The position numbers and the translations under genes are program-made. The notes under the pieces are model-generated. The model saw only the letters and a list, made by a program, of their open reading frames with translations, was not told the DNA's origin and ran no database searches. Shown one piece after another: positions 25,645 through 57,795 of a stretch of DNA of 64,000 bases. The stretch is from Prorocentrum cordatum (lineage: Eukaryota > Sar > Dinophyceae > Prorocentrales > Prorocentraceae): positions 30,001-94,000 of the forward strand of contig CAUYUJ010017654.1 of the NCBI GenBank assembly GCA_963575745.1, written 5' to 3'. Position 1 is the first letter of the stretch. Every line of letters starts with the position of its first letter.

Positions 25645-26972
25645 GGGTCCTCTGACCTGAGCGCGGGGTTGGTGACGCCCCTGCAGTCCAGGAGCGGCCG
25701 CTGAGGGACTGGCAGCTCAGGCAGGATTTCCATGAGCTGCGCGAGAGTCCTGGGGGCTTGCTCGGCCACGGGGGCGGCTGCGCCCGAGGCGCTGGACCCA
25801 GGGAGGTTTGCCGCTCCTGTCTTGGTGAAGCGATCTGGGGCCTTGGCGTCAGCGCCCATCCAGGGAAGGGTGCTAAGAATGTCCACTGGCGCATTCTCTA
25901 CTATCTGGCTGTTGAGCGTTGGCAGGACAGGGGCCTCAGCTGGATACAGTGCCCTGTAATCTCTCCCGATGATGTGGTCTAGAGTCGCGGGTCCGATGTT
26001 CCAGATGGGGACCAGACACCGCCGGCAGCACCAAGTGGCGTTCCAGTCGCGCTCCCACCAGGATGTGGCTCGCCGCTCGATGGGAGGCAGCCCAGCTTGC
26101 TCGGGCACACCCACTCCTTGCTTTGGCTTCCATATGAAGCAGCCCAGGGGAGGTGCTCCAGTATTCCAGACTAGGAGCGGTGCCCCTGGGGGGCATGTGT
26201 CGCACCGAGCAGAGTAGATTTTGTTTTCCGCAGCTTTGAGGCCGAACCGCTCATCCCTGACCCGGAGGATGGGAATAGTGGTATTGGCGCGCTTAGGGAT
26301 CTGTATGCCCGTCGGCGTCATGATGAGATCCGCCAGCGTCCTCGTGTCCGATTGGGGGCTGCATCCGAAGCCAAGTGGGAGATGACCCAAGGAGGGGAGG
26401 GCATCCGCCTTCTTGCCACTTGCGCCACCGGTCCTCCGATGTTCGTACTCCTTGACTTTATCCGCGACTGTTGCACCTGTTGGTGCTGGGATGCCCTTTT
26501 CCTCCAGGTGTCGGATCCAGCAGGTCTCGCAGTGCCACCCCATGTTTGTACCATCGAGGTAGGCCTGGGGCCGGTTCTGCGCTATCATCAGGCGTGTATC
26601 GTCTGAGATCCATGTGCCGTCTGTGGAGCGTAGCTGGTCCTTGCCGCCTCTGTCGCACTTGAACCTGCCATGCTTCTGCTCAGCCAACAGCCTGTCGTCG
26701 GGGATGTGTGGAGGGTCCTGCTTGGTACCTGGAGCAGGGGCGGACGGCATGGGGGCGTTCAGATCGGTGTTGGAAAGCGCGAATCCGCCGCCGATGTAGG
26801 CGAGCCCAGCACCCCGGTCGTCGTCGCCCAGGGAGGCGTCTGAGCCCGCGAGCGCGATGTGAAGTGCGCACACGGAGCAGTGGTGCGTACCCAGGGGGGC
26901 CAGGGAGGCGGCTGGGACGATCTTCTCGAGGACGAGCATCGGGGCCTTCAGCTGAAAGTCTTGTCTGTCCAT
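25599..26972 (-). CDS. Cys-rich C-terminal protein of the giant element
   Basis: 457 codons, ATG 26972 one base after the TGA of the upstream frame (TGAAATG), an arrangement that suits re-initiation. Four CxxC-type groups are visible: HHCSVCALH, HCETCWIRH, ARCDTCPPG and WCCRRCLVP, so it probably binds zinc. The WxCETC...H group resembles the matrin-type finger encoded at 31377-31436. No enzyme motif recognised. The last ~15 codons run past the element end into flanking satellite (from about 25644), so the natural C-terminus is either lost or is the point where cDNA synthesis began. Confidence 0.62.
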   Translation of the reverse strand: MDRQDFQLKAPMLVLEKIVPAASLAPLGTHHCSVCALHIALAGSDASLGDDDRGAGLAYIGGGFALSNTDLNAPMPSAPAPGTKQDPPHIPDDRLLAEQKHGRFKCDRGGKDQLRSTDGTWISDDTRLMIAQNRPQAYLDGTNMGWHCETCWIRHLEEKGIPAPTGATVADKVKEYEHRRTGGASGKKADALPSLGHLPLGFGCSPQSDTRTLADLIMTPTGIQIPKRANTTIPILRVRDERFGLKAAENKIYSARCDTCPPGAPLLVWNTGAPPLGCFIWKPKQGVGVPEQAGLPPIERRATSWWERDWNATWCCRRCLVPIWNIGPATLDHIIGRDYRALYPAEAPVLPTLNSQIVENAPVDILSTLPWMGADAKAPDRFTKTGAANLPGSSASGAAAPVAEQAPRTLAQLMEILPELPVPQRPLLDCRGVTNPALRSEDPARVKYRKYREHLRR

Positions 26973-26973
26973 T

Positions 26974-28722
26974 TCACTCCAGGTCTGCGGGCAGCCAGCT
27001 GCCCCGTGCGTCGGGGTGGTGGTGTGCCACCGCTACGAGCTTGGAGATGTGGGGCAGGATTGCCTCGATGCGGCCGTGGAGATCGGCCAGATCGTCCAGC
27101 GTGTGTCCCCAGGTGCTCGCGAAGTCCTGCCGGAACCCTCGATGCGCTTCCTGCCATGGGACACAGAAGCCCAAGATGGCTTCAATCACGTCCCCAGCCT
27201 GCTCGGCGTGAGGGATAGGCCACAAGAACACGCGCGGCTCGCGGAGCATTAACATCACGACCACCAAGAGCGACCGGGTCTTGCAAGACTCCATGGGGAG
27301 GCCATCTGTGTCCTTGATCTCCTCCCGGAATTGGACCCAGGTTGGATCGACGGAGGCGCCGCCAAGGGTCTCTTGCAGGCCAACCATCCCAGGGTGCTTC
27401 CTGTGTCTGCAGCACAACGTTGCTGCGCTCCACGCCTGGGGAACCTGCCGAAAAAGCCCCTTGGGAGTGCACTGGCGCCGACTGCAGAGCGTTGCACGTC
27501 GGCCCCTGACGCGCGGCACCGGGGGGAGGGGGTCATGGCACGCTGCGCGGCCTGCGTCCTCCCAGGGAGTGCTAAGGCCGAGTGACCACACTATGGCTGC
27601 CCAGAGCATGTTGTAGACCAGATTGGTCGCTTCTAAACCCAGGGACATGTCGAACAGGAAGCCCAGGTGCGACCAAGCCTTCCGGTCGAGTCTGCCAGGC
27701 TGCCGCGGTGTCTCTGACAGCGAGAACTCGTGCGGGTGGAGCCCCGCCACCAGGTAGATAAGCACGTTGAAGGCAGGCGTCGGGAGGATCTCGTTTAAGC
27801 CGACAGAGATGAGCTTGCCCAGTGAGTCCCAATCGAAGTCATCGGCCAGCGGGGTGTTGTAGCGATCGGCGACGCTGTTCGCCTGAGCGTCGCGGGCTGT
27901 CCTCCTGGCCGCATCGAGCTCATTGCGCCCGTCCTCGCCCTTCTCGTCACAGCTCCAGGCGACGGGGGATGGTGCCCAGGTGGCGAGGTCGGGCAGTGGG
28001 TCAAAGCTTTCGTCTATGACCAGAGATCGCCTGTGGCCGGCAGGTCCGTCGCCCCCAAACCGGATCCAGAGGCGGGTCAAGCGTCCATATTCGGGAAGCA
28101 CACGTAGCTGGGACCACGTGGCATTGGCGAACGTGCGCCCGTCTCCCAACATCATGATGTTCCGCTTGGCCCTCGTGATTGCCACGTTCAGCCGCTTGGC
28201 GTCATCGACAAAGCCCCAATTGTGCTTCCCGTTGCTCCTGGTGGTCAGCACAATCACGATGTCTGCCTCTCCACCCTGGCTGGAGTCGATGGTAGTGAGC
28301 TTGAGGGCCCCACTTTTCATGTGCTTGCCCGCAATCTGCCTGAGACCAGGGAAGGCTGTGCCGATGGCTGTGTGGGCGTTACGATCCTCCCGAAAGACGG
28401 TTTCCCAGCGGTATTTGTCCACCTCATGCTCTTGGGAGTCTGCTCCAGGGCGGGGGATGTCTTGCCCGCCACGACCGCCGCTGCCTTTTCCCTTGCCAGA
28501 TTTCCCTTTCTTGCCACTCTTCGAGTTCCGAAGGGCGCCGCTGAGGTGGCGCGGGCCTTGTGGCCAGCCGTCCATGAGGATGGCCGTCTGGAGCTGGTAG
28601 CCAACGACGATTCTGACGGTGGTGCCTCTTTCGAGCTCGGGCAGGAGTGCCCGCGCGATGTCCACGGCCTGCGCTGCCTCGGTGAGGTTGGCGTAGCCTG
28701 GCTGGAGGCCTGACGAAACCTC
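26974..28722 (-). CDS. UPF1-like helicase, C-terminal half plus extension
   Basis: Continues in frame after an in-frame TAG (28723-28725). RecA2-type blocks of a UPF1-like superfamily 1 helicase: a Gln-containing VVGYQLQTAIL segment, motif V TIDSSQGGEADIVIV (about 28250-28292) and motif VI RLNVAITRAKRNIMMLGD (about 28145-28198) with the arginine finger. These residues contact nucleic acid and ATP in this family. About 370 residues of unrecognised sequence follow, ending in TGA one base before the next ATG. Between RecA2 blocks lies a basic Lys/Gly-rich insert (near 28470-28520). Sense continuity with the N-terminal half is clear despite the stop. Confidence 0.82.
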   Translation of the reverse strand, partial: EVSSGLQPGYANLTEAAQAVDIARALLPELERGTTVRIVVGYQLQTAILMDGWPQGPRHLSGALRNSKSGKKGKSGKGKGSGGRGGQDIPRPGADSQEHEVDKYRWETVFREDRNAHTAIGTAFPGLRQIAGKHMKSGALKLTTIDSSQGGEADIVIVLTTRSNGKHNWGFVDDAKRLNVAITRAKRNIMMLGDGRTFANATWSQLRVLPEYGRLTRLWIRFGGDGPAGHRRSLVIDESFDPLPDLATWAPSPVAWSCDEKGEDGRNELDAARRTARDAQANSVADRYNTPLADDFDWDSLGKLISVGLNEILPTPAFNVLIYLVAGLHPHEFSLSETPRQPGRLDRKAWSHLGFLFDMSLGLEATNLVYNMLWAAIVWSLGLSTPWEDAGRAACHDPLPPVPRVRGRRATLCSRRQCTPKGLFRQVPQAWSAATLCCRHRKHPGMVGLQETLGGASVDPTWVQFREEIKDTDGLPMESCKTRSLLVVVMLMLREPRVFLWPIPHAEQAGDVIEAILGFCVPWQEAHRGFRQDFASTWGHTLDDLADLHGRIEAILPHISKLVAVAHHHPDARGSWLPADLE

Positions 28723-29135
28723 CTACGAGGGTGTGTCGACTAGCAGGAAGCGGTGCTTGTCGCCGTTCTGTGGAGGGTCCAACTGCCTGAAGGTCGCGCT
28801 GAGGTCGGCCTCGTTGGAACTGGTGAGCTTGGCGAGTTCCGTCAGGCGACCAGGTTCCCAGGGTGTGATGTCTCTCCATGGGATGCCTTGAACTATAGGC
28901 CTGTCTCTGAGCGGGTCCATGATGCCGCTCGTCATACCCTTGCCGTAGCAGGCTGCGTTCGGAAAGGCGAGCAGCTGCGGATGCATGCGGTAGCAAATCG
29001 ACAGGTGGACCACAGCCGTGTCCTGGCCGCGGAGTGCGTGAAGCATCCTGTCAAATATGCTGACACAGAGTCCCAGGTCGTTGGCAAGCTTTGAGAGAAC
29101 CGTAGGGGCAACTGGTTCGGGTCGCCCACCAGTAC
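28723..29135 (-). CDS. UPF1-like helicase, middle part (shifted frame)
   Basis: This frame takes over from the N-terminal half at a CCCC run near 29106-29112 right after GDPNQLP. It reads APTVLSKLANDLGLCVSIFD and then CYRMHPQLLAFPN (about 28955-28993), which is the YRMHP motif IV of UPF1-like helicases. It ends at an in-frame TAG (28723-28725) in the linker to the next block. A single missing C in the run would explain the frame change, so this is either a real 1-base deletion, a sequencing indel, or a shift site. Confidence 0.82.
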
Positions 29136-30419
29136 CTGGGCTCCGCCGCTGTTGATCACGTTCACCATAGACATGAGCGCATGCAGCTCCGTGGCCTGTC
29201 CGGCTTCGTCGATTACCAGGAGGACAATGTGCGGGCCGTCTTTCTGTCCGAGGGCTTCGGCTGCCCCGTGTGTGGACATGATCACCCTGGCACCCCGGAG
29301 CAGGTTGGCCTTGAAGGGCTTGAAGTCCGAGCTCTTGTCCCCATCCTGACAAGGGAATTCGCCGTGGGCGTTCTTGTAGTGGCCCTCTGGTGTCAGGTCC
29401 ACAAGCTCCTCGTTGACGCGCTCCTTCCTGGCCAGGCGCGCGAATTTCCCAGGGAAGCCCGTGTCGGGATCGAGACGGAGCTGCTGATGTGCTTCGGACA
29501 TTGCCAGGGCGGGCTGGTCTACCGCCGTGTTCGAACCGGCTGCCAGCGCGACTGCTTGGCCCAGACGTAGGCAGCATCCCCACATGTCCAGGCAGGCGAC
29601 GGAAAAGGTGGTCTTGCTTGTCCCGGGGGGTCCGTGCACCAGTACGGCATGGTGACGTAGGGTGGCCTGCAGGGCTCTGATCGCGTCGTTGTTTGGCTTG
29701 TGCTTGTCCACCCTTTCGCTAAAGGTCGTCTGACTAGGTGTGGTGCGCACCCTCTGGAAAACCGACCCCGTCGAGTCCGAGAGCTCGTCGTCCGAGAACG
29801 CCGTCAAACCCAAGGGAAGCGGCGGTACCTGCTGTAAAAGGCCACATCGGACAGCCTGGGTGAGGTCAGCATCGGGGACGTCCATCTCCAGGGTAGCGGC
29901 GGCTCTGGCCCGCAGGTTCGAGCCGACTGTGCTGGTACGCCGTAGGTCGTTGGCCGCGAGTCGGTCGGCCCGGGGAGCGTGCAAGAAGGCCGAGAGGAAC
30001 GTCGAGAGGGGACAGTGCGCGGGCGAACAGATCCGCCGCGTTCTGCCGGAGGTAGTAGATCTGGTCGAGAGCCCAACACTGGCGCCAGTACTGGGTGTCG
30101 GAGGGTGCCTCGTCCACTCGGTACCAGGGAACGTCCTCACTTGGGGGTCGTCCCGCCTTGGTTTCATCTCCATGGAATGGCCCCCGCTTCCCGCTGTTGT
30201 ACTGCACGATGCATCTGTCCGAGGGGTACCTGGTGGCCGGGTTGATGCCGAGCACTTTTGCGTCTCTTGGGTGGATGGCGCCGCCCAGGGAGGGTGGCCA
30301 CCAGATCGTGACGTCCGCAATATTGTCAACTGTGTCGGCCGGTGACGGACATGTACAGATCCTTGCTTTCTTTGTCTCCCTCCTGGGTTCTGGATGCCAC
30401 CCTGTACTCGGAGGGCCAC
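28932..30419 (-). CDS. UPF1-like superfamily 1 helicase, N-terminal half
   Basis: Meaningful down to about 29107. Motif Q-like NNDAIRALQATL is followed by Walker A GPPGTSKTT (about 29608-29634), GSNTAVDQ (Ia), Walker B DEAGQATE (about 29188-29214) and motif III GDPNQLP (about 29106-29126). These are diagnostic of the UPF1/senataxin branch of 5'-3' RNA/DNA helicases and not of Pif1 or viral SF1 types. The first ~150 codons overlap another frame and probably do not all belong here. Lying 3' of a LINE RT on the same strand, it could unwind template RNA or the RNA:DNA hybrid, or remodel decay complexes. That role is inference. Confidence 0.85.
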   Translation of the reverse strand: MALRVQGGIQNPGGRQRKQGSVHVRHRPTQLTILRTSRSGGHPPWAAPSTQETQKCSASTRPPGTPRTDASCSTTAGSGGHSMEMKPRRDDPQVRTFPGTEWTRHPPTPSTGASVGLSTRSTTSGRTRRICSPAHCPLSTFLSAFLHAPRADRLAANDLRRTSTVGSNLRARAAATLEMDVPDADLTQAVRCGLLQQVPPLPLGLTAFSDDELSDSTGSVFQRVRTTPSQTTFSERVDKHKPNNDAIRALQATLRHHAVLVHGPPGTSKTTFSVACLDMWGCCLRLGQAVALAAGSNTAVDQPALAMSEAHQQLRLDPDTGFPGKFARLARKERVNEELVDLTPEGHYKNAHGEFPCQDGDKSSDFKPFKANLLRGARVIMSTHGAAEALGQKDGPHIVLLVIDEAGQATELHALMSMVNVINSGGAQVLVGDPNQLPLRFSQSLPTTWDSVSAYLTGCFTHSAARTRLWSTCRFATACIRSCSPFRTQPATARV

Positions 30420-31590
30420 TCCAACAGGTAGAGTTCCTTACCCTCTGGGAGGTCCAGCGCATTGCGCAACTGGAAGGTGTCCAGGTCGTCCAGGTGCGAG
30501 TTGCCGTCGATCTTGGTGACACGGACGTCGAGAGCGCAGTTGCCTTTCCTGGCCAGGTCTTCGCGCGTGGTGTCTTTTCTGTTGTCCACCGTCTCGACTG
30601 ACGCTTGGCTTTCAACCCAGGCGATTCTCCGAAGTGTCTGCGCACGATCCTGGAGGGTGTAAGGCCACTGTGAGGGGGGGCGGACGGCCTCGGGCAGGCC
30701 CCCCAGCGCCGCCTTGGGGTGGACTCGCAAGTGTGGAGAATCCAGGGGCAGAGAGTAAAGACTAAGTACCTCGGCGGCCGCTTGGACTGCCAGCGACTCG
30801 TCCAGCTGCCGATCCGAAGGGCCTGGCTGTGATGTCTCTTCTTTTGTGCCAGTCTCACTATTCGCTTCTGGCTAGGCTGCCCCCAAGCGGTCGGAGGATG
30901 GGGCGGCGGGGGCGGAGGCAAAGGAACACCCGAGGATGCTGCGGGCTGCCCAGGCGCGGCAGGCAGTGACCCGACGGAGGACTGTGCCAACGCATTAGCC
31001 CCTCCGCCAACGTCGGGCCCTCGGACGCCCGTCTGTCTAGCCTCGCGGATGCCCATCTGGTGCGACCTCACGTGGTCTGGGTCGATTCTCGTGCCTCCCG
31101 GGCTGTTGTGCGTCCATTCGTCGTCCCAGAGAGGGTAGATGGCGGGCACATGCAGCGCGTCCTCCGGAATCACAAGACCAGGGAGTGAGCGGGCGCCGTC
31201 GTGGGATAGCAAGGGTTGCACGGGCCTCCAGCCTAGCCAGGCCCTTCGCTCGATATGCGCACGGTGCACTGCGCCCCAGGTCGATCCACCGCACATGCTC
31301 CACAGGTTCCCCGGGGTGACAAAGGTGCTTGGGTCATGCCACCCGTCGCTGTAGCGCTTTTGCGACATGTCGTAGTGCTTGTCGCTCAGGATGTGCCCAG
31401 TGTCGTCCACCGGCTCCTGGCAGATCTCGCACCAGTAGCGCCACTCGCCGTTGAAGAAGGCCCAACGCATCCAGGGATAGTACCGAGCAAGGAAGACACA
31501 AGAGCCCAGTCTGACAGGCGGGCCGTCCTCACAGTGTGGCAGGCACGAGGGCCAGCGACGGGTGGGACCTTGGTTGTTCCTAGGCCCCAT
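29866..31590 (-). CDS. Matrin/U1-type zinc-finger protein and helicase lead-in
   Basis: ATG at 31590 (MGPRNNQGPTRRW). Near residue 55 it has C-x2-C-x8-H-x5-H in CEICQEPVDDTGHILSDKH (about 31377-31436), the HxxSxxH style of matrin/U1-type zinc fingers that bind double-stranded RNA or splicing RNAs. The middle of this frame (about 30360-30800) is Thr/Arg/Trp-rich and probably not translated, because another frame (30326-30730) looks better there. From about 30340 to 29960 this frame again looks like real protein (DTVDNIADVTIWWPPSLGG..., YLRQNAADLFARALSPL), leading into the helicase frame. So at least two frame changes occur. Confidence 0.6.
   Translation of the reverse strand: MGPRNNQGPTRRWPSCLPHCEDGPPVRLGSCVFLARYYPWMRWAFFNGEWRYWCEICQEPVDDTGHILSDKHYDMSQKRYSDGWHDPSTFVTPGNLWSMCGGSTWGAVHRAHIERRAWLGWRPVQPLLSHDGARSLPGLVIPEDALHVPAIYPLWDDEWTHNSPGGTRIDPDHVRSHQMGIREARQTGVRGPDVGGGANALAQSSVGSLPAAPGQPAASSGVPLPPPPPPHPPTAWGQPSQKRIVRLAQKKRHHSQALRIGSWTSRWQSKRPPRYLVFTLCPWILHTCESTPRRRWGACPRPSAPPHSGLTPSRIVRRHFGESPGLKAKRQSRRWTTEKTPRAKTWPGKATALSTSVSPRSTATRTWTTWTPSSCAMRWTSQRVRNSTCWSGPPSTGWHPEPRRETKKARICTCPSPADTVDNIADVTIWWPPSLGGAIHPRDAKVLGINPATRYPSDRCIVQYNSGKRGPFHGDETKAGRPPSEDVPWYRVDEAPSDTQYWRQCWALDQIYYLRQNAADLFARALSPLDVPLGLLARSPGRPTRGQRPTAYQHSRLEPAGQSRRYPGDGRPRC
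30326..30730 (-). CDS. Segment before helicase in a third frame
   Basis: 134 codons. The last ~75 (KGNCALDVRVTKIDGNSHLD, then DTFQLRNALDLPEGKELYLL) look like an ordinary folded protein, unlike the overlapping frame. They are continued by the 29866-31590 frame after about 30340. I take it as part of the same helicase-containing polyprotein broken by small indels. No domain recognised. Confidence 0.5.
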   Translation of the reverse strand: MRVHPKAALGGLPEAVRPPSQWPYTLQDRAQTLRRIAWVESQASVETVDNRKDTTREDLARKGNCALDVRVTKIDGNSHLDDLDTFQLRNALDLPEGKELYLLEWPSEYRVASRTQEGDKESKDLYMSVTGRHS

Positions 31591-31687
31591 CGTGTGCCGA
31601 GTAGACCCAGGGAGCGTCCAGTAAAACCCAGGGAGGCAGCTGAAGGCTGCAAGCTGTAGTGACCTTAGTGCGTCGGACCAGGAGCGA

Positions 31688-32479
31688 TCAGGGGAGATGA
31701 GGAAGAGGGGGATTTTCGAGAGCGTCAACAACCTGGGCGACCTGGTCCGAGTCGCAGAGGTCAATTCCCGCAGCGGGGAAGAGAGGGGGAGTGGGGCGAT
31801 CGGTGTTTTCCCACACGACCCAGGTGGTGACCGTATGATCACCGGCGTGATTGAGGGCGCTGGCCCACAAGACCCCTAACGTGGCGAGGCGGTCGGCCGC
31901 TTTCTTGAGCCGTCGCCGCACTGCCTGCCATGTGGGGGCCCATCCCGAATCACTGGCCTGCCTAAGGGCAAAGTCCATCTGTTGTGCCAGATGGAGCCGC
32001 CGATGGCGCCCAGTGCCGGCTCCGTATCGAATGGCGGCAAGGTTGTCCCCAACCACCCTGGCGCCCCGGAGCGCGTCTTCAACATGTGGGAGCAGGGCGA
32101 GACCGGCTCTGCACCCCGAGGCCTCGGCCGTCTGTGCATTGTCACAGCCTGGGAGGGCCGCCGCAGCGACCGCCGCGACGCGCGGGTAGCCGCGGCGTGG
32201 GTCATGTCGCCAGAGAACAGCCGCCGCCCCAGAGACCTTGTCTCCTTCTCCAATCCGACGAGCCCTTCCGTCGAACGTGAGCTCGTAAGGCCATTGGGCA
32301 GAGTCTGCGGCGGGGGGCGGGGAGTCTCTGACTGTGATTTCTTCGCCACTGCCCGTGTCCCTGCCAGCTCTGAGCACGAGGGTGTGTTGGTCACAGAGTC
32401 TGCAATGCGCTTTGGTCCAGAGGGCACTGGGATCCCTATCCGTCCTGGGGCATGGAAACCAGCCCTGCCCAGGGGGCAT
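31688..32479 (-). CDS. RNase H domain of the giant element
   Basis: About 263 codons. A CRLCDQH Cys pair comes first, then an RNase H fold: ELTFDGRARR (first Asp), NAQTAEASGCRAGLALL (Glu), RVVGDNLAAIRY (second Asp) and ALNHAGDHT (possible last acidic residue) at about 31830-32290. The enzyme removes RNA from the RNA:DNA hybrid. It follows RT in the sense direction, as in RNase H-bearing LINE clades. The frame begins inside the preceding frame (31876-33054), where a switch near 32470 is needed. It ends at a stop 98 bases upstream of the zinc-finger ATG. Confidence 0.75.
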   Translation of the reverse strand: MPPGQGWFPCPRTDRDPSALWTKAHCRLCDQHTLVLRAGRDTGSGEEITVRDSPPPAADSAQWPYELTFDGRARRIGEGDKVSGAAAVLWRHDPRRGYPRVAAVAAAALPGCDNAQTAEASGCRAGLALLPHVEDALRGARVVGDNLAAIRYGAGTGRHRRLHLAQQMDFALRQASDSGWAPTWQAVRRRLKKAADRLATLGVLWASALNHAGDHTVTTWVVWENTDRPTPPLFPAAGIDLCDSDQVAQVVDALENPPLPHLP

Positions 32480-33054
32480 CCAGCCCGCCCTGGGGTCACC
32501 GGCTTGGAGGACTGCGAGCCTATCGCCACTAAGTCTGGCTCTCGTGGTGATGGGTAGGCGCCGAATTTCCCTTCCGGCGCGTGGTGCTTGCCTGCCGAGA
32601 TGAGGTCCGGCGGCACCGCAGATGCGCCGTAAGTGCGGCCCTTGGGGGTTGCACAGCTGGCAACGTCGAGCATAGGAGCCCAGACTGCGGTTTCGTCAGC
32701 CGGGGCGACGGGGGGCTGCCCTTCATGCAGGTCATCATCAGCTTCGTCGTCGTCCTGAACGTCGGTGTCGGGGACAACGATACCCTGGACAATGAGTCTG
32801 GCGGCTTCCTCCGCACCAATGGGGGTGCAGTCCAAATTCACGCAGTACCTGAAGGAGATCTGGTGCAAAAGCCGACAGACTAGCCTCTGGTGTTGTCCCC
32901 GAGTGCACATTGCCGTGGCCAGGTCCCTGGGGTGGTCTGGGGCTCTGGCTTTTTCCCAGGCAAGGGCGGCCGCGGGGCACCAGCGCCACACGTGCTCGCT
33001 TGTGGCCTCTCCAAGGCCGCTCAGTGGACAGACTCCGTATAGCCCTTGTCGCAT
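31876..33054 (-). CDS. Post-RT segment with zinc-knuckle-like motif
   Basis: Meaningful from 33054 to about 32480. It starts with GVCPLSGLGEATSEHVWRWC, a C...H...C arrangement like the C-terminal zinc motif found after many LINE RTs. A helical stretch and then an acidic Asp/Glu run (DVQDDDEADDD) follow. After about 32480 the frame turns Pro/Ser-rich and the RNase H continues in another frame. Confidence 0.58.
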   Translation of the reverse strand: MRQGLYGVCPLSGLGEATSEHVWRWCPAAALAWEKARAPDHPRDLATAMCTRGQHQRLVCRLLHQISFRYCVNLDCTPIGAEEAARLIVQGIVVPDTDVQDDDEADDDLHEGQPPVAPADETAVWAPMLDVASCATPKGRTYGASAVPPDLISAGKHHAPEGKFGAYPSPREPDLVAIGSQSSKPVTPGRAGCPLGRAGFHAPGRIGIPVPSGPKRIADSVTNTPSCSELAGTRAVAKKSQSETPRPPPQTLPNGLTSSRSTEGLVGLEKETRSLGRRLFSGDMTHAAATRASRRSLRRPSQAVTMHRRPRPRGAEPVSPCSHMLKTRSGAPGWLGTTLPPFDTEPALGAIGGSIWHNRWTLPLGRPVIRDGPPHGRQCGDGSRKRPTASPR

Positions 33055-33440
33055 AGAGACCCAGATGCTAGCCTGGTGCCTTTCTACGCTCGGCCGCTAG
33101 TGCGCGAAGGTCTTCGGGGAGGGCGTCATCGTCCAGAAGAGGCCAGAGCGCGGCCTCACCCGTCCAGGTCCTAAGGCAAGTGTCACACCAGGCCTGTCCG
33201 TCGTCTCACCCGTCCAGGTCCAGGCGGCGCGGTGAGCAACGCTCTCTTGGCGGGTCTGCCGCAGCTGCACTGGTGGGGGATCCTGTCGGCCACGCTTCGC
33301 CGCCGCGCGGAGCCGGGCAGGCCGTTGGCCAGAAGCCGGAGGACGTGGTGTGCCTCGGTGAAGGATGCACAGTGTTGCAGTAGAGACCATTCCGCGCCGT
33401 CTGTCTGTGCCCACCTGCGTTCGTCACTGGTTGCGGTGAA

Positions 33441-47940: not shown

Positions 47941-48189
47941 TGTCGTTATCACCTTTGTTCTACCGAATTTGTGTATTGTTTATTCTTGCCAGTGTGTATG
48001 CAGATTAGCACAGACGTGAAGTATTGTTTGCAGCGTTGCTGTTCGATTGCCATGTACCATCGCCGTTTGATGTTCAGGGGCCCCTGAGTCACGTAAAAGG
48101 TTGCGTTTTGTTTCATACGGCCGATAATCAAGATTATCATCTCTTTACGACAATCCCGAGTAGACTTCGTGTGCTACCATCGGTTGATA
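47941..48189 (+). repeat. Copia 5' LTR
   Basis: 249 bp, TGTCGTTATC...CGGTTGATA, reads as identical to 55563-55811. Ends TG...TA and not TG...CA. It contains a 14-bp palindrome TCAGGGGCCCCTGA and a hairpin GATAATC-AA-GATTATC near its 3' third, possible termination or packaging structures. The promoter is expected here, but no TATA box is evident. Confidence 0.95.
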
Positions 48190-48190
48190 T

Positions 48191-48203
48191 TGGTAGCGGA
48201 GCC
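48191..48203 (+). promoter_or_regulatory. Copia primer-binding site (initiator Met tRNA-like)
   Basis: TGGTAGCGGAGCC starts two bases after the LTR. Its complement ends GCTACCA, like the 3' end of eukaryotic initiator tRNA-Met, the usual primer of copia elements. Assignment to a specific tRNA needs the host tRNA set. Confidence 0.75.
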
Positions 48204-48242
48204 GGAGATCCACACCCATCTCCGGCACCCCGTCCCCGCGCC

Positions 48243-51200
48243 ATGCCCGCTGGCGCGACGCCGCCCCGCGGAGCGGCGAAGCCGCCAGGACCGCCGCCGG
48301 CGAAACCGCCGGGCACCCCGCCCCCTGCCGCCGCGGCTGCTTCGGCTGCCAGCGGCGTGGACCCCGCTGCCGCGACCACTCGGATCCCCGGCAGCGAGGG
48401 CGACGAGGCAGCCTACGCCGAGGAGTGGGCTGGCTGGACGGGCGGAGGCTGGTGGCGCCAGGAGAGTTCCAACTGGGACGGGGGCAGAGGACTCGACGCA
48501 GGCCTGTCCAAGACGGCACCAACATACGAGCTGCTCAAGACCGACGGCTACAGAGTCTTTCGTCGAAAGCTAGAGGTCTTCGAGCGCTGCTGCAGGAAGC
48601 GCGGCACCACCGCAATCAGCGAGGGCGCGTTCTTGATCATGAACTCGCTGCAGGGTGAAGCCGCGGAGGCTACGGAGGATATCGACCTGGACCAGCTGGA
48701 GTCCGAGGACGCCTTCAAGCCGCTGTTCCAGGTCCTCGACGAATACTACAAGTACGACAACCAGACCGAGCTGCCAGCCCGCACAGATCAGTTTTTCGGC
48801 AAGTTCGCTCGCCAGGATAAGGAGACGATGAAGCTTTACTGCTTGCGTCACAAGCGAGAGCTGAGGAAGCTCAAGGAGGTCGGTATGGAGATTCCCGACA
48901 TGCTGGCGGGCTGGCACCTCCTCTCACGAGCGGCCGTCCCGCCTTCGGGCGCCGCCCAGGTGCGAAGTCAATGTGCCAATGGCCTCAGTTGGATCAGTGT
49001 GAAGAAGGCCCTACTCGATACATACGGAGCCGAAGCCGTACCCGACAAGCGCGACGTGAAGCGAGTTGAGAGGATGCTGGTCGGGCAGGGTCACAAGGAC
49101 GACGTGCACTACACGAACGATTACGAGGAGTGGGAGCGAGGCCTGAGCTACGAGGACTCATACCTGGAGGAGGAAGAGTACGATTACGACGAATACGAAG
49201 AGTACGACGCTGAAGAGTACGAGGAAGAGGCCGACGTCGCCGAGGAGCTGCCGCAGGACGTGGAAGAAGCCCAGATTGCGTGCGACGAGGCCTACCTCAG
49301 TTTCGTGGATGCGAAGAAGCGTGTAGCGGAGATCGCCAAGTCGAGAGGGTTTTACCCGATTGTAGCTGTCGCGCCTGACAACAACTATCAACACGGCAAG
49401 GGCGCGTCGCGCCCCGCCAAGCCGACGGGCGGCAAGGGCAAGGGCCGCAGCAAAGGCAAAGGCAAAGGCAAGGGCACCGGCTCGCGCCAGGTGTTCAGGC
49501 CGAAAGTGAACATCTTCAACAGGCCCCCGACGGCGACGCCGGCAGGATCGACCGCTACAGGCTCGACACAGCAGCACGGCCCGAGGTTCAAGCGATTCCG
49601 TGGAGGAGGTTTCGTGAAGCCCGATTCGGAGCACGCCGCCATGGTAGAAGACGTGGAGACGCTAGAGTACGCTAACTCGACCGAGGAGGTGTACCTGATG
49701 TCGACTGGCAAGGGCATCAGCGACGGCGGTGCGACGCGACCCGTCATGGGCGACAAGATCTGGGCGCAGTGGGAGGAGCTGCTGCGTTCACGCCAGCTGC
49801 TGCACGAGGTCGAGTACGGCAAGAGCGACCGACGATTTCGATTCGGAGACGGCAAGACGCTGGAGGCCAAACGGTCCGTGACCTTGAACGTGTGGCCGTT
49901 CGGCGTCAAGAAGCAGATCACGATCCATCTCGTCGAGGGGTGGACGCCGCTGCTCATCGCCCGTCCGTGTATGGAAGAGTGGGGTTTGGTCCAGGACTAC
50001 CGCGCCGGCACGTTCATGATGAAGGACCTCCCCGACAAAGGCTGGATGAAGTCCGAGCGAGACGAGAAGGGGCACTTCATCATCGACCTGCTGGGTGGCG
50101 CCGGCAGGCCCACCGACGACGCGATGAACGAGGGCGCGCCGACCGAGGGCGAGCCCAGCAGCGACGACTCGACCGACAAGGAGTCCGAGGCACCGCCGAC
50201 CGAGTCCGAGGACGATTCTGAATCGTCCGACGTGGACCCCGACGCGTACTACCTCGAGACGGTCACCGAGTTTTATGACATCAGCGACAATGACGACGTG
50301 GGAAGTGAGCGGACCCAGGAGTTTTCGGTGGCGGGTTCGAACGAGAGCGCTAAACCGAGCACGATGGACCCCGACACCTACACCGACCTGGCCCTGGCTC
50401 TCGAGCAGGCATGCGACGGCATGAAGGAGATGCTCCGAGGACCCCCGCCGCGCAAGGTCTGGGAGGTATTCGTGGACGCAGGAGGTCTGTCGCAAGCGCT
50501 GCTCGAGTACCCCATGGTGGACGTCATGCAGTTCCGCCTCGAGGACGGCTGGGATTTCTCCAAGCCGAAGGTGATCAAGGCGTTCTTGAGGAAGATCGAC
50601 GTCGAGAGACCCGACGACATCTTCTTCGCACCCCCGTGCAAAGTATGGTGCTCGTGGCAGTACGTGAACGCCTCGCTCTCAGCGGAGCGCGCCGCGGAGA
50701 TCCACGAGGCGAGAGTGCGCGAGGAGAAGACGTTTCTGAAGTTGGTCCGTGACTCGTTCGTGAAGCAGCTGAGTGGAGGCCGACACGCCTACGTGGAAGG
50801 CCCATGGTCAGGAGCGCACTGGAACACCAAGACGTGGAAGGCACTGCCGGGACATCACTGCCGACTGGACCAGTGCCGCCTGGGAGCTAAGTTCCCCATG
50901 AAGGGAGTGGACATGCCGTACCAGAAGCCGACGCGATTGCAGTCCACTAACAAGGAGTTCGTCGATCACATGGGTCTGAGGTGCGAGTGCAGGGGCGAGC
51001 GCGTGACACTACGCGGCAAGCTCGCCCAGCAGGCTCAGAACTACCCCGCACCGATGGCCCGGCGGATGGCCTACCTGATTGCTTACCAGGGCATGGCCGC
51101 CGACATCGACGAGATTTACACAGCCGAGGAAGTGCACAAGGACATCGACGCCATCGAGTACACAGACGTAATGCAGGAGCTGATGAAGCGCTTCAACGTC

Positions 51201-54200
51201 TCGACCATCCGTGCGGTCAAGCGCGCCCACGTCAGCCTGGGACACCCCTCGAATGCGGCGCTGGCCAACGCCATGCGACACGCAGGTGCCCCAGCAGAGT
51301 GGATCCAGTGCGCCAGGCTTTATCAGTGCGAGATTTGCCTCAAGAGACAGCGACCGCGCACCGTGCGCGTGGCCGTGCTCCCGAAGGCCAAGCGCTTCAA
51401 CGAGGTGGTCTGCACCGACGTGTACTACGTTACCTGGAAGACGAAGGAACGGAAGATCCTAGCGATGATGGACGAGTTCACGCGCTACGAGGTTGACTAC
51501 CCTATCGCAAAGGAGACCTTCAAGAAGGAGAAGAAGCTCTTCGAGAAGCTCTGGATCAGCTGGGCCGGCAAGCCCGAGACGATGCGCATGGACATGGGCG
51601 GTTCGCACACGTCCAAGAAGATGCACTCCTGGATGAGCAAGCACGACATCAAGCTCGACCTGATACCGAAGGGCGCGCATCACAAGCTGGGCTTGATGGA
51701 GCGGAACCACGCGGTTCGGAGGGAGCAGCTGAGCAAGTACCACATGCAGTTCCCCGACGACTCGCTCAAGACAGCCCTTCGGATGACGGCCAGCCAGCGC
51801 AACCTACTGCGGAACGTGCACGGGTTCTCACCCGCCATGCTGGTGCTGGGGACTCAGCCCCGCGTGCCGGGCGCCCTCACCGACGAGGACTTCGGCCTGG
51901 CCGAGCAGTCCGCGCTGGTCGACCCGAGGAGCGAGGTGCACGAGATGATGCTGCGGCGTGTCGCCGCCGGCACGGCCTTCATCGAGGCCAACTGCTCGCG
52001 CGCCGTGCGCGCGGCCCTGTTGGCCCGCAGCAGGCCGACCCGGCGAGAATACGAGGTTGGCGAGTGGGTCTACATTTGGAGACCGGAGCCTTCGCGTGGC
52101 CTGGAGAAGTGCCACTGGTTCGGCCCCGCGCTGGTGGTGGCCGTGGAGGCGAAGCGCAACGAGGACGACGTGCTGCACACCTCAGTGGTCTGGGCCACAC
52201 ACGGGTGCGTGATCTACAGGTGCACGGTCGAGCAGCTTCGACCTGAACTGCCGGGCGAGGCCCGCGAGCGCGAGGGCCGCAGGGACGACCCCGACAGTCC
52301 GCTCAGCTTGATCGAGAAGCTGCGCCGCGCATTGAGGCGGACGAAGGGTACCTGCAACTACAGGGACCTGGCGGAGGAGGGGCAGACGCCCCAGTACGAC
52401 GGCAACCTGGACGACATGGGGGACCAGCCGCAGGCGCGGGGACCCGACGTCCAGGAGACAGACATGGAGGAGCCCGGCGAGGCATCGGGGGCAGCTGCAG
52501 CGGCAACTCCCGAGGAGGCTCAGCCTGGCGACACTGGTGGCGTGGAAGCAGTTGATCGAGACTCACCACGTTCCCCAGCAGCTGACGATGGCGCCGCCGC
52601 GAGCGGAAGTGCATCAAGCCATGCAGCGCCAGAGCCCAGCCGGCTCCACATCGAGACGATGGCCAAGAGGAGCGTAGAGGAGGCCGAGAAGCTGGATGGC
52701 GTGCCGCTATCGAAGCGAGCCCGCTTGACGTGGGCCAAGCTGAACCCTCCTGACGAGCACGCCACGCTGCTTGAAGAAGTAGACGACGAGATGCTATTGT
52801 TGGAAGAGTCCACTGAGACGGTCTACATGCTGGCCTTCAAGCGGAAAGCCCCCACCATCGTGGAGGGAAAGCTGACGCCCGAGGAGAAGGAACAATTCTA
52901 CGCAGCGAAGCTGGAGGCCCTCGAGGTGTTCAATCGGAACGACGGCTGGGAGCCCATCAACGAGGAAGACGTGGACCCAGCAGCTTGCTGTCCGTTGCGG
53001 TTCTTGCTGAAGTGGAAGATGAAAGACGGACAGAAGGTGGCTAACGCGCGCGTGCTGTACCAGGGGTTCAAGCATCGCGACGTCGCCGAGGGCCAGCTCG
53101 ACAAGGAGGCGCCGACCTTGAGCAGACTGGGCCGGCACACGGTCATGCTCTGGGCGTCCCTACGGAAGTGGAGGCTGTTCACGGCGGATGTGAAGTCCGC
53201 ATTCCTGCAGGCGGAGGACGTGAGCGTACGCGGACTCAAGCTGTACGCGAGCCCGACGAAGGAGATGAGGGAGATGCTCTCTCAGCAGATCGGCCTGCAG
53301 CCTGGACAGCTGCTGAAGATGATCAAGCCGTGTTTCGGAGACCCGAGGTCGCCGAAGCTCTGGCACTACCGGTCGGATGAAGTCACGAAGGAGATCGGGT
53401 TCAGGAACCACTGGCTTGAGGACTGCCTCTTGCTGTCCCTGCGCCCGGCGAAGGTCGAGGACGACCCGTTCGACGTGTGCAGCTTCGAGGACCAGACCTA
53501 CGTGGTGGACGGCCTGATCGGCAAGCACGTGGACGACTTCATCGGATGCGGCGAGGGAGTCAACTGTGAGGACGACTTGCACACCATGCTGGACAACTCG
53601 GAGTGCTTCCAAGCGAGATTGGGCGCGCTCAACCAGAAGTTCACGTTCGGCAAGTGGGACTTCGGGCCGAGCCTGATCTTCACTGGTGGCGAGGTGGAGC
53701 AGTCTCTCAGCACCTACGCGGTGACCCTGAAGTTCGAGAAGTACCTGCACGCGGTGAAGCCCATCACCATCGAGAAGCACCGCCGGGCGGACCCGACGAG
53801 CGCGCTGACGCCGAGGGAGCTCACCAGTTTCAGGACCCTGAACGGGCAGCTGCAGTGGCCCGCGGCCCAAGGAGTGATGATAGCCGCAGCGACTGTTTCT
53901 TTCAGGGCCGCGGCCACGGGAAGTGCTACGGTGCAGGACCTCCTGGACGCGAACAAGGACCTGCGCTTTCTGAAGGCCAACGCGGACGTGGGACTCTACT
54001 TCGGGTTCGACAAGGCCTGGAGCGAGCTGCGCGTGGGAGGCTACTCCGACGCGAGTTGGGCCAGCCGCCTGGACGGGAGCTCGCAGGGTGGCTATGCGAT
54101 CTTCGTTGGACCCGACGACGACCTGCGAAACGGCAACCCGACACCGTTCGTGGGGGTGGAGTGGGCCTCGAAGAAGCTCGTGCGGCTGTGCAGGAGCTCG

Positions 54201-55166
54201 CTGTCCGCGGAGGCGCAGGCAGCTGCGCTAGGCGTGGATTCGTTGATGTGGGTGAAGATCTACCTGACGCTGAGCTTGCGGCCAGACTTCAAGCCAGACC
54301 AAGCGATGCTGTACCTCGGAGAGTCGCCGTTCATCACGGACGCGAAGTGTCTCTACGACGCCTCAAGGTCAGCCACAGCAGGCCTGGGCATCACGGAGAA
54401 GCGGACAGCCATCGAGGTGAAGATTGTGAACGAACAGATGGAAGAGATCGGAGCAGTGTGGAAGTGGGTGAATACCCAGCAGCAGATGGCGGACGGGTTG
54501 ACGAAGCTCTCCGCGCGCCAGCAGATGGCGGACGTGCTGCGCCGTGGAGTTCACGCTCTACGGTACGACCCGAATTTCGTGGCCGGGAAGAAGCTGACCA
54601 AGCGCGCGATGGAGCAGCGCGAGAAGGAGCTGGACCAGGCTGGAGATGACCTGGCGGACGAGTTTGAGGCAAAGCCAAAGGAGAAGCCCAAGCAGAGGAA
54701 GCGCCATTTCGGCGCGAGTGGTGCGAGGTTGGCGGCAACCTTGGCAGCGAGCGCAGCATCGAGTGCAGCCGGAGAGTTGATGAAGTACACGCCCAGCGGC
54801 GTTGAGCTGTTCAACACACCGGGGCCCGACGACTGGAGCGGCCTGATCACGAAGCTGCTCATGATAGGCATCGTGACATGCCTCATCCTGGCGTTCGGCT
54901 GTGGGTTCTGCGCAGGGGTGTGGTGGATGCACCTGACGAGCAAGACGACGAGCGCAGCCTACAAGACGCTGGAGCTGGAGACGGGACAGATCCCGACCAG
55001 ATCGACGACGGCGGGGACCGCCACGACAGGAACGAGCACGAAGCCGATCAAGCAGAAGAAGACGCGCGACATGTGCTGCCAGGCTCCGACACGCTACAAT
55101 CTCGACCTGGCACAGCCGAGGTTCCAGCCGTTGCCGGAGTACGCCCACGGGGCATTCTTCAGCTGA
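48243..55166 (+). CDS. Copia Gag-Pol polyprotein
   Basis: 2307 residues from the first in-frame ATG. Pro/Ala-rich start; Gag about 97-280; acidic patch about 307-340; Lys-Gly run about 397-414 where a zinc knuckle would be expected (no CCHC). Protease with DGGAT at Asp 494 in place of DSGAT. An extra domain about 741-925 carries PPC at 797-799. Then pre-integrase HHCC zinc (HVSLGHPSN, CEICLKRQ) and integrase Asp1059, Asp1117, Glu1153 with D,D-35-E spacing. RT ADVKSAFLQ (Asp 1649) and HVDDF (1764-1765). RNase H YSDASWAS (Asp 1936). A C-terminal extension has a hydrophobic segment about 2204-2230. The whole coding frame is uninterrupted. Gag and Pol share one frame, so the Gag:Pol ratio must be set some other way. 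Confidence 0.95.
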   Translation: MPAGATPPRGAAKPPGPPPAKPPGTPPPAAAAASAASGVDPAAATTRIPGSEGDEAAYAEEWAGWTGGGWWRQESSNWDGGRGLDAGLSKTAPTYELLKTDGYRVFRRKLEVFERCCRKRGTTAISEGAFLIMNSLQGEAAEATEDIDLDQLESEDAFKPLFQVLDEYYKYDNQTELPARTDQFFGKFARQDKETMKLYCLRHKRELRKLKEVGMEIPDMLAGWHLLSRAAVPPSGAAQVRSQCANGLSWISVKKALLDTYGAEAVPDKRDVKRVERMLVGQGHKDDVHYTNDYEEWERGLSYEDSYLEEEEYDYDEYEEYDAEEYEEEADVAEELPQDVEEAQIACDEAYLSFVDAKKRVAEIAKSRGFYPIVAVAPDNNYQHGKGASRPAKPTGGKGKGRSKGKGKGKGTGSRQVFRPKVNIFNRPPTATPAGSTATGSTQQHGPRFKRFRGGGFVKPDSEHAAMVEDVETLEYANSTEEVYLMSTGKGISDGGATRPVMGDKIWAQWEELLRSRQLLHEVEYGKSDRRFRFGDGKTLEAKRSVTLNVWPFGVKKQITIHLVEGWTPLLIARPCMEEWGLVQDYRAGTFMMKDLPDKGWMKSERDEKGHFIIDLLGGAGRPTDDAMNEGAPTEGEPSSDDSTDKESEAPPTESEDDSESSDVDPDAYYLETVTEFYDISDNDDVGSERTQEFSVAGSNESAKPSTMDPDTYTDLALALEQACDGMKEMLRGPPPRKVWEVFVDAGGLSQALLEYPMVDVMQFRLEDGWDFSKPKVIKAFLRKIDVERPDDIFFAPPCKVWCSWQYVNASLSAERAAEIHEARVREEKTFLKLVRDSFVKQLSGGRHAYVEGPWSGAHWNTKTWKALPGHHCRLDQCRLGAKFPMKGVDMPYQKPTRLQSTNKEFVDHMGLRCECRGERVTLRGKLAQQAQNYPAPMARRMAYLIAYQGMAADIDEIYTAEEVHKDIDAIEYTDVMQELMKRFNVSTIRAVKRAHVSLGHPSNAALANAMRHAGAPAEWIQCARLYQCEICLKRQRPRTVRVAVLPKAKRFNEVVCTDVYYVTWKTKERKILAMMDEFTRYEVDYPIAKETFKKEKKLFEKLWISWAGKPETMRMDMGGSHTSKKMHSWMSKHDIKLDLIPKGAHHKLGLMERNHAVRREQLSKYHMQFPDDSLKTALRMTASQRNLLRNVHGFSPAMLVLGTQPRVPGALTDEDFGLAEQSALVDPRSEVHEMMLRRVAAGTAFIEANCSRAVRAALLARSRPTRREYEVGEWVYIWRPEPSRGLEKCHWFGPALVVAVEAKRNEDDVLHTSVVWATHGCVIYRCTVEQLRPELPGEAREREGRRDDPDSPLSLIEKLRRALRRTKGTCNYRDLAEEGQTPQYDGNLDDMGDQPQARGPDVQETDMEEPGEASGAAAAATPEEAQPGDTGGVEAVDRDSPRSPAADDGAAASGSASSHAAPEPSRLHIETMAKRSVEEAEKLDGVPLSKRARLTWAKLNPPDEHATLLEEVDDEMLLLEESTETVYMLAFKRKAPTIVEGKLTPEEKEQFYAAKLEALEVFNRNDGWEPINEEDVDPAACCPLRFLLKWKMKDGQKVANARVLYQGFKHRDVAEGQLDKEAPTLSRLGRHTVMLWASLRKWRLFTADVKSAFLQAEDVSVRGLKLYASPTKEMREMLSQQIGLQPGQLLKMIKPCFGDPRSPKLWHYRSDEVTKEIGFRNHWLEDCLLLSLRPAKVEDDPFDVCSFEDQTYVVDGLIGKHVDDFIGCGEGVNCEDDLHTMLDNSECFQARLGALNQKFTFGKWDFGPSLIFTGGEVEQSLSTYAVTLKFEKYLHAVKPITIEKHRRADPTSALTPRELTSFRTLNGQLQWPAAQGVMIAAATVSFRAAATGSATVQDLLDANKDLRFLKANADVGLYFGFDKAWSELRVGGYSDASWASRLDGSSQGGYAIFVGPDDDLRNGNPTPFVGVEWASKKLVRLCRSSLSAEAQAAALGVDSLMWVKIYLTLSLRPDFKPDQAMLYLGESPFITDAKCLYDASRSATAGLGITEKRTAIEVKIVNEQMEEIGAVWKWVNTQQQMADGLTKLSARQQMADVLRRGVHALRYDPNFVAGKKLTKRAMEQREKELDQAGDDLADEFEAKPKEKPKQRKRHFGASGARLAATLAASAASSAAGELMKYTPSGVELFNTPGPDDWSGLITKLLMIGIVTCLILAFGCGFCAGVWWMHLTSKTTSAAYKTLELETGQIPTRSTTAGTATTGTSTKPIKQKKTRDMCCQAPTRYNLDLAQPRFQPLPEYAHGAFFS
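50463..51015 (+). other. Extra PPC domain inside copia Pol (methyltransferase-like?)
   Basis: Between protease and pre-integrase. FVDAGGLSQALLEYP (possible cofactor-binding start), LEDGWDFSKP, then DDIFFAPPCKVWCSW with PPC at residues 797-799, YVEGPWSGAHW about 55 residues later, and LDQCRLGAKFPMKG. The order xPPCxxxxxxW ... ExPxSxxxW ... DQC recalls a class I AdoMet-dependent methyltransferase. I recall similar blocks in other dinoflagellate copia-type polyproteins. The enzyme assignment is inference. Confidence 0.5.
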
Positions 55167-55562
55167 TCACTACGACGAGGGGAACCCACGCCTATGGCGA
55201 CGTGGCGGCGATGCCGCACTACCTGAAGTGCTTCGAGAAGCACGACATGCTGAGCGCCGTGGAGGCGCGGACTTGTTTGCCGGGCGAGATCGACCGATCG
55301 CCTGGCTGCTGAAAATAATTAAGGAGATGTACGTCGCTGTCGCGACCGCCGGTGGTTTCACAGTCTTGTCAGACAAGGTTTGTGTCCTGGGACCTGCGGT
55401 GTCAGGGATGTTTGTCTGTTTTAGCTTCGGTCCTGTTCCCGAGCGTTTTGATGCTCTGTTTAGTTTCGAGTTGAGTTTTGTTTCCTGGTAAAGTTCCGGG
55501 GAGCCCTGTTCTAGGCGATGATTGGTTTATAGCGTATCTGTGCTAACTCCTTTTTCCGCCCG
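55167..55562 (+). other. Copia 3' untranslated region
   Basis: About 395 bp between the Gag-Pol stop and the 3' LTR. T/G-rich in the middle (TTTGTGTCC to GAGTTGAGTTTTGTTTCC). The last bases before the LTR are CTCCTTTTTCCGCCCG, pyrimidine-rich, so the expected polypurine tract is absent in the usual place. The nearest purine run is short (GGGGAG near 55498). Confidence 0.7.
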
Positions 55563-55811
55563 TGTCGTTATCACCTTTGTTCTACCGAATTTGTGTATTG
55601 TTTATTCTTGCCAGTGTGTATGCAGATTAGCACAGACGTGAAGTATTGTTTGCAGCGTTGCTGTTCGATTGCCATGTACCATCGCCGTTTGATGTTCAGG
55701 GGCCCCTGAGTCACGTAAAAGGTTGCGTTTTGTTTCATACGGCCGATAATCAAGATTATCATCTCTTTACGACAATCCCGAGTAGACTTCGTGTGCTACC
55801 ATCGGTTGATA
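55563..55811 (+). repeat. Copia 3' LTR
   Basis: 249 bp, no difference from the 5' LTR by reading. Followed directly by the CAGGG duplication (55812-55816). Confidence 0.95.
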
Positions 55812-55816
55812 CAGGG
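55812..55816. repeat. Copia target-site duplication CAGGG (right)
   Basis: Second copy of the duplication at 47936-47940. It lies inside one of the CCAGGGA heptamers enriched in the giant element, next to a GCCCA-CTTCG-TGGGC hairpin. Confidence 0.9.
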
Positions 55817-57353: not shown

Positions 57354-57604
57354 AGTTCTCGTATGTCTGCTGAGTCGACGGGTACGATCAAGGGATCCAC
57401 GGACGCGATCGGACCGATCGAGCCCGGAGGGTCGCAGGGAGCGAGGGGCGACGGCTGCCCTGGAGGGATGGTATCCTGTGATCCTGGGGGAGGAGGGCTT
57501 GAACCAGCCAGTACGTGGGCCCCCTGGCCATCGACTAGGCTTCCGTCTTCACCCGCAGGGTTCCCAGGGATCCTAGACCTGTCACCGATCGGGTTCCCAT
57601 CCAT
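56987..57604 (-). CDS. N-terminal Pro-rich protein of the giant element
   Basis: 205 codons from ATG 57604 (MDGNPIGDRS), 173 bases downstream of the spliced-leader relic, so it is a good candidate for the first start in the transcript. Pro/Ser/Gly-rich and Arg-rich near the end, with no known domain. Stops 12 bases before the next open frame, which has no ATG; a single frame change would fuse them into one ORF1-like protein. Confidence 0.55.
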   Translation of the reverse strand: MDGNPIGDRSRIPGNPAGEDGSLVDGQGAHVLAGSSPPPPGSQDTIPPGQPSPLAPCDPPGSIGPIASVDPLIVPVDSADIRELSAFSRTGIEGATVSAARHSDTATFSRFPGFDIDSNDSFPPDLFPSLTPTLPLPLAGRPISFSPGGEGQDWIARDTRTTGGLGPVPDEEHPPRGSGPFGPRRSSRQRGALGERPRSLTDEGG

Positions 57605-57776
57605 GCTAAGCCTGACCTGGCAGGCTGGCTGCCGCGCCGCGCCGCTGGGGGAGGTGTAGCCCAGGGAGTCTGATATGGCCGAAGCGCGGCCCGGGGGCAG
57701 CGCGCGGCCCGCAAACTCCTAGGGGATACCCCCTTGGGCTGGGAGACCCGGCCGAGGGGCCAGGGCCCAGAGACGG

Positions 57777-57795
57777 CTTGAGCCAAAGGCTACGG
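57777..57795 (-). other. Relict dinoflagellate spliced leader
   Basis: Minus strand reads CCGTAGCCTTTGGCTCAAG. This is the conserved dinoflagellate leader lacking only two bases (AT) in the middle. It lies directly 5' of the giant element's coding block on the same strand. It marks the 5' end of a trans-spliced RNA that was reverse-transcribed into this locus, and dates the block as RNA-derived. Confidence 0.85.

Follow-up and report, generated by a model that had tools for sequence, protein, structure and literature searches.

The minus strand of a 64,000-nucleotide stretch of the Prorocentrum cordatum genome (hereafter the window; positions 30001-94000 of contig C16805 in a genome of 4.128 Gb) carries long reading frames in succession from 57.7 to 25.6 kb, which together form one copy of a very large retrotransposon. 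The full element comprises three large open reading frames (ORFs) in fixed order, encoding a RING finger and a DNA methyltransferase (DNMT)-like domain; an apurinic/apyrimidinic (AP) endonuclease, a reverse transcriptase (RT) and an RNase H; and a zinc finger, a UPF1/SEN1-like helicase and a Cys-rich part. The helicase and the Cys-rich part share one ORF, and RT and helicase lie in separate ORFs. The block is read here, at a probability of roughly 0.93, as a degraded, 3′-truncated copy of a giant site-specific retrotransposon of the long interspersed nuclear element (LINE) type of about 27 kb. LINEs are usually 4-8 kb long, and to our knowledge none as long as this one has been described. The initial annotation of the locus had put the element at ~24 kb, which holds for the length remaining in the window (~24.3 kb) but falls short of the full length of ~27.3 kb, obtained by adding 3.07 kb from other copies.

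A hidden Markov model (HMM) of codon usage calls coding sequence on the minus strand from 57675 to 25647 without a noncoding gap once a nested Copia element is removed, in keeping with the nearly continuous one-strand coding noted at the outset; as the model was trained on the block itself, the call is descriptive. Its path contains 22 frame switches and eight stop codons; two of the switches are natural ORF ends, a few may be artefacts of the model, and the others show decay. The Copia element, a long terminal repeat (LTR) retrotransposon on the plus strand (47941-55811) that is not part of the LINE, has identical LTRs of 249 nt (47941-48189 and 55563-55811), a target site duplication (TSD) of CAGGG and a frame of 2385 amino acids (aa) with an integrase, and its excision restores a frame of 893 codons at the empty site. 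G+C content at third codon positions is 0.65-0.78 in the modules of the giant element, 0.83 in Copia and 0.49-0.53 in a smaller LINE within the window. Synonymous codon use falls inside the random range in nine of 11 modules, the outliers being the Pro/Ala-rich part (0.058 vs a largest random value of 0.042) and the RNase H part (0.107 vs 0.096); the excess is greater in Copia (0.108 vs 0.035) and in the small LINE (0.167 and 0.170 vs 0.062 and 0.092). The observed-to-expected CpG ratio is 0.82 between 25.6 and 47.9 kb, 1.08 in Copia and 1.14 in the neighbouring satellite; elsewhere in the window it is 0.89 in the 5′ flank, 0.76 in the small LINE and 0.61 in the left part.

ORF1 (37104-57604, minus strand) is Pro/Ala-rich, broken in the window and split by Copia; when complete it would have about 4,150 codons. 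Its RING finger (44004-44165, minus strand) matches PF13639 above cut-off (E = 2.7e-8; E = 7.4e-8 in the copy at L044), and in L044 the region from the RING finger to the end of the DNMT-like domain is an uninterrupted frame of 2405 aa without stops (C and L denote contigs and fetched loci of the same genome). The ORF ends in ...QQQHV.PGLPFP before the stop in C13378, C17285 and L044, and in ...QQHVPPGPPSP in the window. Both ORF1 and ORF2 are also broken in C13378, the sole copy read across the whole block. The DNMT-like domain (37158-38447, minus strand) has a homologue in the metagenome protein P0001 (42% over 92% of the query), the only match among 7996 scored candidates. The alignment extends upstream across the window stop at 38508, and P0001 ends within a few residues of the ORF1 stop, an end that a short contig could also have set. 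P0001 does not qualify as a C5-methyltransferase by PF00145 (E = 0.31, 10.9 bits vs a cut-off of 22). Profile alignment with six C5-methyltransferases by hhalign brought motifs IV, VI and VIII into register (which we take to be Pro-Cys, Glu and R.R, respectively) at E = 0.014 but with a probability value of only 3, the control giving E = 0.49. A fold search with the structure model of this ORF yielded nothing at E <= 0.001, its best 50 rows included no methyltransferase, and PDB searches for the domain were equally unproductive. On these sequence comparisons the domain is best called DNMT-like, as a weak assignment, and subject to that assignment a DNMT-type domain lies in the ORF upstream of that encoding RT.

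ORF2 (31688-37208, minus strand, with a putative start) stops after ...HLP, an end that recurs in C13378, C15199, C17285 and C17321. The AP endonuclease (36160-36830, minus strand) matches PF14529 (5.1e-5) and PF03372 (5.4e-4), both below cut-off; the RT (34392-35412, minus strand) matches PF00078 (RVT_1) above cut-off (E = 2.7e-7); and the RNase H (31811-32240, minus strand) matches PF13456 weakly (E = 0.091) and two further metagenome proteins, P0002 and P0003, at 45% and 41%. These two proteins align at 37% from the RT C-terminus through the RNase H; the alignment bridges three frame switches and two stops in the window, which are therefore lesions. The three metagenome proteins are the homologues found outside this genome; scans of viral contigs and one genome-contig scan gave no relative.

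ORF3 (25646-31687, minus strand) is 3′-truncated in the window and forms one stop-free frame of 2502 aa in C13378 and C17285. TGAAATG at 26.98 kb, considered as a natural ORF boundary, was ruled out because this frame spans it in C13378. The ORF encodes a superfamily 1 (SF1) helicase of the SF1B, UPF1/SEN1-like type, with RecA1 at 29097-29693 (AAA_11, E = 4.9e-20) and RecA2 at 28141-28326 (AAA_12, E = 1.6e-20), both on the minus strand and above cut-off; its nearest PDB structures are SEN1 (1.7e-6) and UPF1 (3.6e-4). A protein search with the mixed-frame helicase ORF of the window as query gave no useful match. In other copies ORF3 ends in ...RGEK(R/K)QRWGD, 1.48-1.56 kb beyond 25645. Among the modules initially proposed, RING, RT and helicase are thus recovered above cut-off, the AP endonuclease stays below it, the DNMT call is weak, and the matrin-type finger is read by eye only.

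Copies were sought in the whole genome. C13378 is colinear with the entire block, from window position 57808 to 25643, at 87-90% identity. The helicase ORF has at least 75 matches (4762 candidates, 75-100% identity) and the DNMT-like ORF at least 93 match rows from 91 scored of 1924 candidates (70-100% identity), the window included in both. When the 75 helicase rows were compared with 91 of the 93 DNMT rows (two second pieces being left out), the two modules occurred together, among the matches listed, on 21 contigs including the window, order and strand agreeing in 21 of 21. Their spacing is 8.9-10.0 kb in 18 contigs and 11.9, 18.0 and 24.0 kb in the others; two of the 18, C14031 and C19266, have equal spacing and may represent one duplicated locus. 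Six contigs chosen by their helicase were fetched (C13378, C15199, C18688, C17321, C18900 and C17285). Three have internal starts, C15199 at 43261, C18688 at 36473 and C17321 at 32691; the former two may be truncated or interrupted, and C17321 is a clear 5′-truncated copy. C18900 is interrupted; it was ruled out as a 5′-truncated copy, since its helicase lies 38.6 kb away from a 5′ match. C17285 is ended by the contig end. C17285 and C13378 are identical in copy and 3′ flank over the stretch compared, and one of them may be an allelic or duplicated contig. An endonuclease-RT-RNase H unit with ends of its own was not seen in the six helicase-chosen contigs, RT never having been the sole genome query, and shorter relatives lacking the RING, methyltransferase-like or helicase parts may exist.

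All modules show similar divergence and evidence of constraint. Between the window and C13378, synonymous divergence (dS) is 0.219-0.297 over 11 modules, and the ratio of nonsynonymous to synonymous divergence (dN/dS) is below 1 throughout (0.17-0.49), peaking in the N-terminal part and in the finger region. For the modules present in four additional copies dN/dS is 0.18-0.64, and in each of these copies the finger region again has the largest value. As decayed copies raise dN/dS, true constraint is likely stronger.

The 5′ end of the element is marked by a spliced-leader relic (57777-57796, minus strand). The match at 57795-57777 covers 19 of 21 nt of what we take to be the spliced leader, with one 2-nt gap, and scores 16.5 against a best of 13.5 in eight single-strand shuffles; the relic proposed in the initial annotation was thus found, as the first bases of the element. 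It is preceded by a 12-bp sequence, here TATCCCCGCCAG (57797-57808, minus strand), and by a conserved upstream part, ATTCTTGACGCTTCGCG (57809-57825, minus strand), that is common to copies whose flanks appear unrelated by eye. A 241-nt query from this end has at least 40 matches (577 candidates), and 32 of the 39 outside the window begin at query positions 36-38. The 16 fetched 5′ ends consist of seemingly unrelated flanks, as judged by eye, followed by ATTCTTGACGCTTCGCG-TATCCCCACCAG with small changes, the leader relic and conserved element sequence; C14100 has the leader with one mismatch, and C3359 lacks its first half. In C847 (L050) and C18900 (L054) two leader relics stand in tandem, as repeated trans-splicing and reinsertion could give.

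Among the matches listed, 12 of the 39 5′ ends pair with a DNMT-like match on the same strand, and in 11 of the 12 this match lies downstream, at 2.2, 9.8, 11.37, 11.39, 11.47, 13.2, 13.2, 15.7, 19.1, 20.9 and 21.7 kb; the expected distance is 11.44 kb, and three of the 12 pairs fall at 11.4-11.5 kb. For the helicase, likewise among the matches listed, 11 of 12 pairs are downstream on the same strand, at 11.1, 14.4, 19.6, 20.0, 20.7, 21.0, 21.8, 22.2, 22.3, 30.7 and 38.6 kb, with seven of the 12 at 19.6-22.3 kb (21.2 kb expected). The spread of these distances indicates that copies vary by deletions and insertions.

At its other end the window copy is joined at 25645 to a satellite. The satellite reported at the 3′ end does adjoin the element there, but the junction is a truncation point and not the element end, since all six other contigs continue past it; the junction, at a CTCGAG palindrome where the small LINE is inserted as well, was ruled out as the element 3′ end on the same ground. 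Beyond the end of ORF3, C15199 and C18900 share a further part reaching 3.07-3.10 kb past 25645. A 3′ query gave at least 40 matches (587 candidates); as it stopped at the supposed end, the evidence for that end comes from C15199 and C18900, from the sequence upstream of C13378 and from 14 fetched 3′ flanks. In 12 of the 14, ...CGGCTGT is followed by an A- or AT-rich tail, and in ten the tail is followed by a form of TATCCCCACCAG (exact in five) and then by mostly unrelated sequence; among the 12 with tails, one is masked after the tail and one runs into AT repeats. The remaining two of the 14 lack the search word and read ...CGGCTGG and ...CGGCTGC instead. Behind the C15199 tail stands TACCCCCACTGG, which resembles the target less closely. 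Upstream of C13378, about 500 bp lie between two occurrences of TATCCCCACCAG, so that the 12-mer flanks this stretch on both sides; its last 109 bp match the element 3′ end, and the full copy follows behind the second occurrence.

The upstream motif also precedes the truncated copy C17321, which starts 21 nt behind it, the short piece upstream of C13378 and an apparent empty site. The latter, in L008 (at about 3249), carries the motif with three of 23 mismatches, and sequence resembling the 3′ flanks at the filled sites C4825 and C15722 follows directly; it is possibly an empty target site, beside another RT locus. From the motif before C17321, the 12-mer after the tails and L008, the 30-nt motif is most likely the target, and the element would begin at the leader relic.

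Taken together, the data indicate that the element behaves as a LINE. The AP endonuclease is N-terminal to the RT in one ORF (in order from 36.8 to 33.4 kb), a frame interrupted in both the window copy and C13378. No LTRs of the element are seen between 25.7 and 57.8 kb of the window, the range compared, where the sole long direct-repeat pair is that of the nested Copia. The 3′ end, with its short A-rich tail, is common to copies, 5′ truncation occurs as in C17321, and the target is duplicated, the 12-mer standing before 5′ ends and after tails, mostly at different loci. The proposal that all parts belong to one element is supported by the colinear C13378, the shared module order on 21 contigs and the common 5′ start in 32 of 39 matches, the recurrence of internal order and ends having been named as its decisive check.

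Several observations weigh against this reading. The length of ~27 kb is summed over copies, and no single copy has been read from 5′ to 3′ end. For one 5′ end the nearest listed DNMT match is 309 kb upstream, and for one the nearest listed helicase match is 255 kb off on the other strand. The 3′ copy of the target is lost in the window, and AT repeats, with no target, follow the 3′ end of C18900. Before the target was recognized, word searches in five to six copies gave no TSD except an 8-mer in C18900. AG stands directly before the relic in ten of the 16 fetched 5′ ends and is missing in six. The DNMT call is weak, as the window ORF matches no Pfam family even at E = 10, and its structure model is poor (mean pLDDT 37.9).

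Three alternative explanations were weighed. Nesting does occur here, as the Copia insertion and the full C13378 copy behind a stretch ending like the element 3′ end demonstrate, and the block might be a set of insertions, nested or side by side, and of host genes that came to lie on one strand by chance; with the same order in other copies, no noncoding gap and similar dS across modules, this is hardly credible. A multi-gene host locus or an integrated virus spread by segmental duplication is the second alternative, and the identity of C17285 and C13378 shows that duplicated or allelic contigs occur. This origin is very improbable given the AP endonuclease, RT and RNase H inside the block, the common ends within seemingly unrelated flanks, the 12-mer at both kinds of end, the A-rich tail and the 5′-truncated copy.

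A further alternative concerns only where the element begins. The 30 nt before the relic could be part of it, the relic then being an old internal fossil and copies starting from an upstream promoter, which would suit the start shared by 32 of 39 matches. It is unlikely, if less so than the preceding two, because a form of the 12-mer follows the tail in ten of 14 3′ ends, the motif precedes the truncated C17321, and in L008 it stands directly before sequence resembling the 3′ flanks of two filled sites. The preferred reading remains a LINE whose first bases are the leader relic, inserted behind a 30-nt target.

For such a LINE, the element would be transcribed as one long mRNA that receives the spliced leader; the AP endonuclease would nick the target, the RT would prime there on the A-rich tail and copy back to the leader, and RNase H would remove the template. 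The UPF1-like helicase probably aids the very long RNA, and the RING and DNMT-like parts would probably have host proteins and also RNA or cDNA as their targets; these roles are guesses. An AG usually closes the target, and a newly inserted element may thereby come to lie behind a trans-splice acceptor, from which each new copy could regain a leader. The complete scheme, in which a three-ORF LINE of ~27 kb uses its 12-bp target as a trans-splice acceptor, the host restores the leader in each cycle, and helicase, RING and DNMT-like proteins deal with the giant RNA and with the response of the host, is a tentative one that we consider possible but somewhat doubtful.

Related systems share single features with the element. 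SymbioLINE-Dnmt of Symbiodinium (de Mendoza et al. 2018, PMC5890265) is likewise a dinoflagellate LINE with a DNMT-type domain, in its ORF1, upstream of an endonuclease-RT-RNase H ORF and with purifying selection on both; as described in the available parts of that report, it is without a RING finger, helicase ORF, giant size, spliced leader or 12-mer target, and is said to lack poly-A tails. The insect LINEs TRAS and Jockey also encode an SF1 helicase, which the text available describes as of RNA-virus origin (Morozov et al. 2019, PMC6338049), whereas that of the giant element is UPF1/SEN1-like and lies in a separate ORF with the Cys-rich part. Accessory ORFs in giant retroelements are described, in the portions available, for Terminons and other giant eukaryotic transposons (PMC6431247); Terminons are of the Penelope-like kind and Burro belongs to the Gypsy-like LTR elements, whereas the giant LINE has an AP endonuclease and lacks LTRs. 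Dinoflagellate genes with relict leaders carry leader relics, also repeated, 5′ of reinserted mRNA according to the sections available (PMC3229502); the reinserted mRNA of the giant element differs in encoding its own retrotransposition enzymes. The parts available of a 2024 review of dinoflagellate genomics (PMC11453091) mention no such element. A literature search found none with this size, module set and target, which is weak evidence as most subscription journals lay outside the search.

DNMT-bearing dinoflagellate LINEs are thus already known, and the new features are the length, the third ORF, the RING finger, a leader at the very first base and a 12-bp target. That a LINE of ~27 kb is under constraint in every module suggests that a very long mRNA can go on being copied, and that LINEs are able to acquire helicase, RING and DNMT-like proteins. 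Because the leader forms the first bases and the target before it mostly ends in AG, mRNA recycling in dinoflagellates becomes testable on a defined element.

Other repeats in the window include the satellite, with a 178-bp unit containing the CTCGAG palindrome, at 24893-25645 and 14473-23273. The smaller LINE lies within it on the plus strand (14875-20360) and comprises an ORF1, an endonuclease-RT and an RNase H, with an apparent AACT duplication. It has no significant similarity to the giant element; its first bases are likewise TTGGCTCAAG, from the end of the spliced leader, and both the small LINE and the truncation of the giant one join the satellite within a few bases of the palindrome. 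A 12-bp tandem repeat, CCCGACGCCCTA, is present in about 47 copies at 62451-63012.

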